This document shows, in pieces, positions 29,772-31,739 of a DNA stretch of 64,000 nt. The stretch comes from Microbispora catharanthi (GTDB lineage: Bacteria > Actinomycetota > Actinomycetes > Streptosporangiales > Streptosporangiaceae). The notes below the pieces were generated by a model that had not been told where the DNA came from, made no database searches, and saw only the letters and a list, made by a program, of their open reading frames with translations. How positions within the stretch are numbered: position 1 is the first letter of the stretch; the number at the start of each line of letters is the position of its first letter. A program made the position numbers and the translations under genes. The stretch lies in NCBI RefSeq assembly GCF_006334915.2, contig NZ_VDMA02000014.1, positions 62,001 through 126,000 of the forward strand, given 5' to 3'.

Positions 29772-30851
29772 TCAGTAGAGGGCCTTCATCGCCTCCCGCA
29801 CCTCCTTGAGGGTGTCGTCGGCGATGGCGTTCGCCCACTCGTTGCCGTCGCGAAGCACCCGGCGGATGTGGGCGCGGTCCAGGGCCAGCTCGGCGCGCCG
29901 TGCCCGGATGGGCGCGAAGTGATCGTTGACCGCGTCGGTGACGACGGCCTTCAGCGCGGCCGCTCCCCGGCCGCCGATCTCCTCGGCCACCTCGTGCGGG
30001 TCGCGGTCCAGGCACAGCGCAGCCAGAAGGACCAGGCTGGAGACTTCGGGCCGGGCCACCGGGTCGTACGTGATGTGGCGGTCCGCGTCGGTCTTGGCGC
30101 CGCGGATCATCCGGGCGGTCTCGTCGGCGGTCGCGGCCAGGGCGATGGCGTTGCCCCGGCTCTTGCTCATCTTGCCTCCGTCGGTGCCGAGCAACAGCGG
30201 GGCCGCGGACAGCAGAGCCTCCGGCTCGGGGAACACCGGACCGTAGCGGCTGTTGAAGCGGCGTGCGACGGTGCGGGCCACCTCCAGATGAGGCAGCTGA
30301 TCCTGACCGACAGGCACGAGCCCGGCCTTGCAGAACAGGATGTCGGCGGCCTGGTGGACCGGATAGGTGAACATCAGCCCGCTGACCGCCGACTGACTCG
30401 AGTGGGCGATCTCATCCTTGACCGTGGGGTTGCGGCCCAGCTCCGCGACGGAGACCAGGCTGAGGAACGGCAGCAGCAGCTGGTTCAGCGCGGGGACCGC
30501 GCTGTGCGTGAAAACGGTGGCCCGGTCCGGGTCGATGCCCACGGCCAGGTAGTCGAGCACCAGGTCCTCCACGTGCTCCGCGAGCCGGTCGGCGACGTCG
30601 CGGTCGGTCAGGACCTGGTAGTCCGCGACGAGCACCATCATGTCCACGCCCAGGTTCTGGAGGCGGACGCGGTTGTGCAGGGTGCCGAAATAGTGCCCCA
30701 GGTGCAGCCGCCCGGTCGGGCGGTCCCCGGTCAGCGCGCGGAATCTTCCGGGCCGCTCGTGGATCTGTCTCTCCAGCTCGGCGCTGCGGCGCCGGGCGGC
30801 CGGCACGCCGAGCTCGTCGTCGTCCGGAGTGGTGTCGAGGATCGCGGTCAT
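29772..30851 (-). CDS. trpS: Tryptophanyl-tRNA synthetase
   Basis: 359 residues, a class I synthetase that charges tRNA-Trp. The HIGH-type motif is GRLHLGHYFG (about residues 46-55) and the KMSKS motif is GGKMSKSRGN (about 227). Substrate-pocket region SVAELGRNPTVKDEI and VPVGQDQLPHLEVAR are as expected. GGGAG precedes the ATG. Upstream lies a Trp-codon leader peptide and terminator, so expression should fall when charged tRNA-Trp is plentiful. Confidence 0.95.
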   Translation of the reverse strand: MTAILDTTPDDDELGVPAARRRSAELERQIHERPGRFRALTGDRPTGRLHLGHYFGTLHNRVRLQNLGVDMMVLVADYQVLTDRDVADRLAEHVEDLVLDYLAVGIDPDRATVFTHSAVPALNQLLLPFLSLVSVAELGRNPTVKDEIAHSSQSAVSGLMFTYPVHQAADILFCKAGLVPVGQDQLPHLEVARTVARRFNSRYGPVFPEPEALLSAAPLLLGTDGGKMSKSRGNAIALAATADETARMIRGAKTDADRHITYDPVARPEVSSLVLLAALCLDRDPHEVAEEIGGRGAAALKAVVTDAVNDHFAPIRARRAELALDRAHIRRVLRDGNEWANAIADDTLKEVREAMKALY

Positions 30852-30911
30852 GTGTTCTCCCTTGGCAGGTGGTCCGCCGTTCCGACGGCGACCCCTCGTC
30901 CAGGGAGCACG

Positions 30912-30938
30912 AAAAAGGGCCGTCCATCCGAACGGCCC
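30912..30938 (-). terminator. Attenuator terminator of trpS
   Basis: On the minus strand GGGCCGT-N8-ACGGCCC followed directly by TTTTT, between the Trp leader peptide and trpS. A CGGCC just after the leader stop (30962-30958) could pair with GGCCG of its 5' arm as an antiterminator. Confidence 0.75.
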
Positions 30939-30960
30939 GGTCGTACGCGTGTGAGATGGC

Positions 30961-30977
30961 CGCTCCTACGTGGAGCG
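30961..30977 (-). promoter_or_regulatory. Hairpin over the leader-peptide stop codon
   Basis: CGCTCC / GGAGCG stem with loop ACGTA (minus strand), spanning the TAG of the leader ORF; position fits the pause or competing hairpin of an attenuator. Confidence 0.55.
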
Positions 30978-31007
30978 CCACCAGCCCTGACACAACGTAC
31001 GAATCAT
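30966..31007 (-). CDS. trpS leader peptide (two adjacent Trp codons)
   Basis: 13-residue ORF MIRTLCQGWWRST. Two consecutive TGG codons at positions 9-10 sit just before the stop and the hairpin/terminator pair, the hallmark of ribosome-mediated Trp attenuation. A TACACT -10-like box ends 6 bases before the ATG, so the transcript may be leaderless. Confidence 0.8.
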   Translation of the reverse strand: MIRTLCQGWWRST

Positions 31008-31142
31008 GCGGCCAGTGTAACGGCCACCGAGGGACTGCCGGCAAGACGGTAGAGTGGTGGGGTTGCGCTCGTAACGCCTTCCGCTAGGGCGGGTGAGGGG
31101 GAGCGCGTCAATCCGCCGACGAGCATCCCTAGGAGATGTGCC

Positions 31143-31739
31143 GTGTCCGAAGTACGTATCGCCGCCGAGCTTCGCAACGAGTTCGGCAAGGGCGCCGCCC
31201 GCAAGATCCGCCGGGGGAACAAGGTCCCCGCCGTTCTCTACGGCCACGGCACCGAGCCCAAGCACCTGACCCTCCCCGGCCACGAGCTGCTGCTCGCGCT
31301 GCGCACGCCCAACGTGCTCATCCGCCTGCAGGGCGAGGGCGTGGACGAGATCGCGCTGCCCAAGGGCGTCCAGCGCGACCCGATCAAGGGCTTCCTGGAG
31401 CACGTCGACCTGCTGCTGGTCAAGCGCGGCGAGAAGGTCACCGTCGAGATCCCGGTCACCGTCACCGGCGACACGATCGGCAGCGCCATCGTCGAGCAGC
31501 AGCTCGTCACGATCTCGGTCGAGACCGAGGCGACCCACATCCCGACCGGCGTCGAGGTGGACGTGGACGGCAAGGACGCCGGCTTCGCGGTGCACGCGAG
31601 CGACCTGAAGCTGCCGAACGGCACCACGCTGGCGGGCGACCCCGAGGCCCTGGTGCTGCAGGTGATCGGCGCCCCGGCCGCCGAGCTGCCCGAGGAGGGC
31701 GAGGCCGCCGAGGGCGAGAGCGCCGAGGCCGCCGAGTAG
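31143..31739 (+). CDS. rplY: 50S ribosomal protein L25/Ctc
   Basis: 198 residues, the long (TL5/Ctc) form that binds 5S rRNA. The N-terminal L25 domain reads VRIAAELRNEFGKGAARKIR and RDPIKGFLEHVDLLLV; the C-terminal beta domain covers about 95-180, followed by an acidic Glu/Ala tail (EEGEAAEGESAEAAE). GTG start with TAGGAG seven bases upstream. A strong terminator follows, then pth. Confidence 0.94.
   Translation: MSEVRIAAELRNEFGKGAARKIRRGNKVPAVLYGHGTEPKHLTLPGHELLLALRTPNVLIRLQGEGVDEIALPKGVQRDPIKGFLEHVDLLLVKRGEKVTVEIPVTVTGDTIGSAIVEQQLVTISVETEATHIPTGVEVDVDGKDAGFAVHASDLKLPNGTTLAGDPEALVLQVIGAPAAELPEEGEAAEGESAEAAE

Follow-up and report, generated by a model that had tools for sequence, protein, structure and literature searches.

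A probable ribosome-mediated tryptophan attenuator with a predicted leaderless start ahead of an auxiliary trpS gene of Microbispora catharanthi

An auxiliary trpS gene of the soil actinomycete Microbispora catharanthi is very probably controlled by a ribosome-mediated transcriptional attenuator onto which the ribosome loads directly at the mRNA 5' end. The element was analyzed within a stretch of 64,000 nucleotides (the window), where it is located between rplY (plus strand, from position 31143) and trpS (minus strand) and extends over about 95 bases from the ATG of a short leader to the T5 tract of a terminator. The original prediction comprised a Trp leader, a hairpin at its stop codon, a competing pairing and a terminator with T5. 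All these parts are present, and they are conserved in most of the relatives.

The ORF downstream of the element (29772 to 30851, minus strand, 359 aa) was identified as a tryptophanyl-tRNA synthetase by TIGR00233 with 226.6 bits (cut-off 176.75). Its closest named relatives are from Microbispora species (97%), and the neighboring genes encode ribose-phosphate diphosphokinase, the 50S protein L25 and Pth. The genome contains two trpS genes: the copy on contig 33 scores 327.4 bits, compared with 226.6 bits for the window copy, and is taken as the housekeeping gene. Both are 34% identical. The best solved chains for the window enzyme are 1yi8 and 2a4m, of which 2a4m is named TrpRS II. Because of the presence of two trpS genes, the identity of 34%, the TrpRS II-like structures and the lower score, the window gene was assigned as the auxiliary copy. 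The segment ADLHALT of the housekeeping enzyme, whose histidine presumably contacts indolmycin, reads ADYQVLT in the window enzyme. The window TrpRS may be a spare enzyme which possibly tolerates an inhibitor. PMC9437257 describes second synthetases, including TrpRS, that are insensitive to antibiotics and share about 30% identity with the first copy, and a second TrpRS of about this identity alongside the housekeeping one is what we found here.

The position of the element ahead of trpS, as originally proposed, was confirmed, with the refinement that the gene is the auxiliary trpS and that the housekeeping copies lack the leader. Within the same genus the leader was found at 15/15 auxiliary trpS copies, a count that leaves out L032, a fragment of an auxiliary copy. 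In contrast, 0/14 housekeeping trpS genes of the genus had such a leader in the 450 bases scanned upstream. At L017 (genome G013) the auxiliary trpS matches in two separate pieces only and the leader is intact.

All parts of the element are located on the minus strand. The putative -10 element TACACT (31014 to 31019) ends 6 bases (GGCCGC) before the leader ATG at 31007, and a CG is found one base 5' of it (31021-31022). The leader ORF MIRTLCQGWWRST (30966 to 31007) comprises 13 codons with 31007 as its first base, and its tandem Trp codons TGG TGG (30978 to 30983) are the predicted stall site. Directly downstream, arm 1 with the sequence CGCTCC (30972 to 30977) pairs with GGAGCG (30961-30966) across the leader stop. 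Arm 2, GGAGCGGCC (30958 to 30966), is common to this 1:2 hairpin and to the 2:3 antiterminator, a helix of 8 bp between GAGCGGCC (30965-30958) and GGCCGTTC (30937-30930). Arm 3, GGGCCGTTC (30930 to 30938), is the 3' arm of the antiterminator and at the same time the 5' arm of the terminator, whereas arm 4, GGACGGCCC (30917 to 30925), is the 3' arm of the terminator. The terminator consists of 9 bp in the order GGGCCGTTC-GGAT-GGACGGCCC (30938-30917) and is followed by the T5 tract (30912 to 30916). The leader RNA of 105 bases has a folding energy of -56.4 kcal/mol (z = -5.3), and 0/200 shuffled sequences were equally stable. An Rfam search with 1 kb around the site revealed nothing relevant, the two matches being far under the gathering scores.

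According to the mechanism that we propose, transcription would start on the leader ATG. With ample charged tRNA-Trp, the ribosome would reach the stop codon and cover arm 2, and arms 3 and 4 would form the terminator. If charged tRNA-Trp becomes scarce, because Trp runs short or the housekeeping TrpRS is inhibited, the ribosome would stall at the tandem TGG codons and cover arm 1, which would set arm 2 free. Prior to the synthesis of arm 4, arm 2 would then pair with arm 3, and the polymerase would continue into trpS. In the absence of a ribosome the 1:2 hairpin would leave the terminator free to form.

In the window itself the pattern TANNNT-N6-RTG is not above chance (4 seen, 6.1 expected), and therefore the leaderless claim rests on the relatives. 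A promoter scan called no sigma-70-type promoter with a -35 element in the region. For comparison we used 81 auxiliary trpS loci, 80 kept of 440 plus the window, which are mutually related. The leaders were picked independently of the promoter, by searching the last 700 bases upstream of trpS for an ORF with TGGTGG and a stop within seven codons. Such a leader ORF was present in 73/81 loci, and in 73/73 of them a TANNNT is located 6 (62 leaders) or 7 (11 leaders) bases before a candidate start. Among the 172 candidate starts only four other such sites occurred, at gap 0, and the background of TANNNT near the leaders was 42/44,615 positions or about 0.0009 per position. Three further leaders with gap 6 or 7 were found at L052 (IS-displaced), L056 and L111 (single-Trp). 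Altogether 76/81 auxiliary loci have a Trp leader, and the TANNNT is at gap 6 or 7 in 76/76; no Trp leader was found upstream of the auxiliary trpS at the other five (L058, L063, L101, L103 and L112). The -10 element that had been predicted 6 bases before the ATG is located exactly at this position in the window, and a spacing of 6 or 7 bases recurs in most of the relatives.

For a set of 75 leaders, which leaves out L059 on account of an edge limit even though this locus does have a leader, the upstream contexts of 60 bases fall into 60 clusters (ungapped, 60% identity) and the -10 elements comprise 22 different hexamers. The spacing is therefore kept despite sequence change. In 55/75 of these promoters the pattern CGnTAnnnT is present, and the aligned columns show no clear -35 element. 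Two Trp codons are present in 73/75 leaders and one in 2/75. The start codons are 67 ATG, 8 GTG and 0 TTG. The absence of TTG fits the rule reported for mycobacteria in PMC4633059, by which a 5'-terminal ATG or GTG suffices for a leaderless start, TTG being poor.

The start of the window leader has no Shine-Dalgarno sequence (-1.5 kcal/mol), whereas the Shine-Dalgarno region of trpS, CCAAGGGAG (30857 to 30865, minus strand), forms an anti-SD duplex of -8.6 kcal/mol. A similar picture was obtained with the relatives: the median of the pairing at the leaders is -2.2, whereas the trpS starts in 11 relatives gave values of -7.4 to -9.3. The sequence features of a leaderless gene, a -10 element that would put +1 on the ATG or GTG start and the absence of a Shine-Dalgarno sequence, were both found. 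By this comparison of sequences, the predicted leaderless start is well supported.

A model that does not see the promoter was used for a survey of the family. The model, R1, was trained on 71 aligned sequences (alignment A1), has the start codon as its first position and so contains no promoter; it was run on 61 family genomes, one per genus, with strict filters under which weak matches may be lost. R1 yielded 22 matches in 20/61 genomes, counting the window itself and perhaps further sequences used for training. A -10 element at gap 6 or 7 was present in 22/22 matches, and in 19/22 the start codon is located exactly on position 1 of the model. Directly before auxiliary trpS are 14/22 matches, two of these genes being in pieces. 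Four matches (L131, L132, L134 and L135) precede a more distant TrpRS that is 36-43% identical to the window enzyme, and four precede trpE (L137, L138) or trpD (L139, L140). With these strict filters no R1 match was detected in the family genomes at 3/15 single-piece auxiliary trpS genes (G033, G038 and G049), nor adjacent to the fragmentary auxiliary trpS of G017 (C94) and G031 (C836). When the M. catharanthi genome was searched with R1, the window site was the only one at E < 0.01; the next match (E 0.28) is on the opposite strand at about the same place. As side observations, the leaders of the distant TrpRS genes contain WWW in L131, L132 and L135 and WW in L134, and in other genera of the family trpE and trpD are preceded by the same leaderless Trp attenuator layout.

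These results bear on a Trp attenuator whose transcript starts further upstream and has an ordinary 5' UTR, with TACACT being incidental. Such an arrangement would be compatible with the lack of a significant promoter in the window alone and with the 9/75 leaders that have some SD-like upstream pairing (-4.5 or better). The spacing of 6 or 7 bases in 73/73 promoter-independent leaders, most of them without a Shine-Dalgarno sequence, and the same spacing in 22/22 promoter-free matches argue strongly against it, and we consider an upstream start very unlikely.

The attenuator with a start on the leader ATG was further analyzed at the level of pairing. In the terminator conformer 97.5% of the cells are paired, and four pairs show two-sided changes, compared with 1.5 in shuffled alignments. 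All four belong to the 1:2 helix, in which three pairs are not formed in 8 to 11 of the 71 rows. The pairs of the terminator helix show no two-sided changes, so that covariation says little about this helix. In the 2:3 antiterminator 99.3% of the cells are paired and 16 cells are two-sided versus 3.9 in shuffles; all of these are at one pair, and neither the number of pairs with two-sided change nor the pair types of this helix are above the shuffles. Swapping arms between loci changed the energy of the 1:2 helix from -11.5 to -7.6, the own arm being better in 81%, and that of the 2:3 helix from -16.5 to -15.1, with the own arm better in 79% and worse in 18%.

A terminator stem of at least 6 is present in 74/75 relatives; the stem of L052 is doubtful, its attenuator being split. 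Fewer than three T among the first six bases were counted in 13/74 terminators. In L052, from Streptomyces sp. NBC_01016, the leader is located at about -1063 and the terminator adjoins trpS, and transposase-like ORFs (DDE_Tnp_1, DUF4096) are found between both parts (L052:430-1410).

A terminator scan of the region called a single site, which is the terminator described here (shuffles average 0.1). This would also be expected if the hairpin served solely to end transcription between two units, the short ORF having no regulatory role. We assign a nearly negligible probability to this explanation, against which stand the Trp codons, the covariation of the 1:2 and 2:3 pairings and the association of the leader with the auxiliary but not with the housekeeping trpS.

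To model the proposed attenuation, the edge of the ribosome was placed 13-14 bases downstream of the first nucleotide in the A-site codon. Before arm 4 is present, the mean 2:3 pairing (n=73) was 0.01 without a ribosome, rose to 0.87 or 0.81 when the ribosome stood at the first or the second Trp codon, respectively, and was 0.00 when it had reached the stop codon. The corresponding values for the window are 0.00, 0.89, 0.89 and 0.00. In the finished RNA the terminator prevails in every ribosome state (0.96-0.97), and the switch therefore needs folding during transcription. The classical trp attenuator likewise depends on folding during transcription. The hallmarks of the trp type were found in the element: a leader ORF with tandem codons, an intrinsic terminator before the structural gene and mutually exclusive 1:2, 2:3 and 3:4 pairings. 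In the folding calculations the ribosome geometry is also that of the trp type, since a stalled ribosome frees arm 2 and a ribosome at the stop codon masks it.

A further explanation is that the leader senses cysteine, or the peptide itself, instead of Trp. It is suggested by the Cys at codon 6 in 62/75 leaders (TGT 33, TGC 29). This codon lies in a stem formed with the segment before the terminator, which comprises five pairs, four of them with two-sided changes; for each pair, 3 to 7 of the 71 rows have a break or a gap. As the codon is part of a covarying stem, the Cys can be explained without a cysteine signal and may be kept for pairing. The Trp codons in turn are nearly invariant and have the right distance from arm 1. 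We consider sensing of cysteine or of the peptide extremely unlikely, and cysteine was dropped as the regulating amino acid in favor of an RNA stem at codon 6.

Sensing of Trp by an attenuator ahead of a second trpS has precedents. Vecchione and Sello reportedly worked on Streptomyces. The title of their paper (Vecchione and Sello 2010) indicates, as here, an auxiliary, antibiotic-resistant trpS under ribosome-mediated transcriptional attenuation. From RNA-seq data of S. lividans TK24, PMC8079986 describes a Trp leader (MMTRTCTQLWRAA) that precedes trpS and is leaderless, along with several more amino-acid leaders of the leaderless type. This trpL2-trpS arrangement resembles the window in that a leaderless Trp leader with downstream hairpins is located before trpS, which is monocistronic there. 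As described there, it contains a single Trp codon and lacks a uridine-rich stretch, whereas the window has two Trp codons and T5. The coupling of attenuation to leaderless initiation, which had been put forward as notable, is thus not new and already in print for S. lividans, including a case before trpS. Predicted trp attenuators of Streptomyces and Corynebacterium, one of them before trpS2 of S. avermitilis, share the UGG repeats, the GC-rich terminator and conserved complementary triples gGCC-rGCy-GGCC; the available part of this study (PMC1262725) does not treat transcription starts. The ilvB leader of Corynebacterium diphtheriae is likewise an amino-acid leader peptide with its TSS at the start codon, but it concerns branched-chain amino acids and ilvB, and the corresponding part of PMC5784534 reports that no TSS was found for the trp leader of this organism. 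The leaderless polycysteine ORFs of mycobacteria are, by title, an amino-acid-responsive attenuator as well, but for cysteine.

Because of the precedents from S. lividans, from C. diphtheriae and for auxiliary trpS, both the mechanism and the leaderless start are known in kind. New are this example and the comparative counts, although similar comparisons may be contained in Vecchione and Sello 2010; no comparable survey was found among the titles and abstracts searched, in which subscription journals are thinly covered. The 76/76 leaders and 22/22 promoter-blind matches provide a clean comparative case that attenuators are able to do without a 5' UTR. The loading of the ribosome, the sensing of Trp and termination would all fit into about 95 bases from +1, and the element could serve as a compact test system for the speed of ribosome loading on a leaderless RNA with the polymerase still within reach.

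A helix that hides the Shine-Dalgarno region of trpS in the read-through RNA is a possible extra feature of the element. The post-terminator segment CTCCCTGG (30900 to 30907, minus strand), a candidate partner of the trpS ribosome-binding site with modest support, can pair at 30907-30900 with CCAAGGGAG at 30865-30857, and the relatives have similar helices with other letters. A more far-reaching reading combines such a translational lock, its pairing being kept as the sequences differ, with a leaderless start that is a fixed design rule of the Trp attenuators of this lineage rather than a side effect of leaderless genes being numerous; we regard this combination as rather doubtful. The predicted pairing of the trpS Shine-Dalgarno region was >0.5 in 66/70 loci. 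It amounted to 0.76 versus 0.67 with shuffled upstream sequence, and the own sequence was above the control in 51/70 loci. The energy of the duplex with the Shine-Dalgarno region was -12.2 for the own segment, -10.3 for swapped and -8.9 for shuffled segments; the own segment was the better one in 72% of the swaps and the poorer one in 26%.
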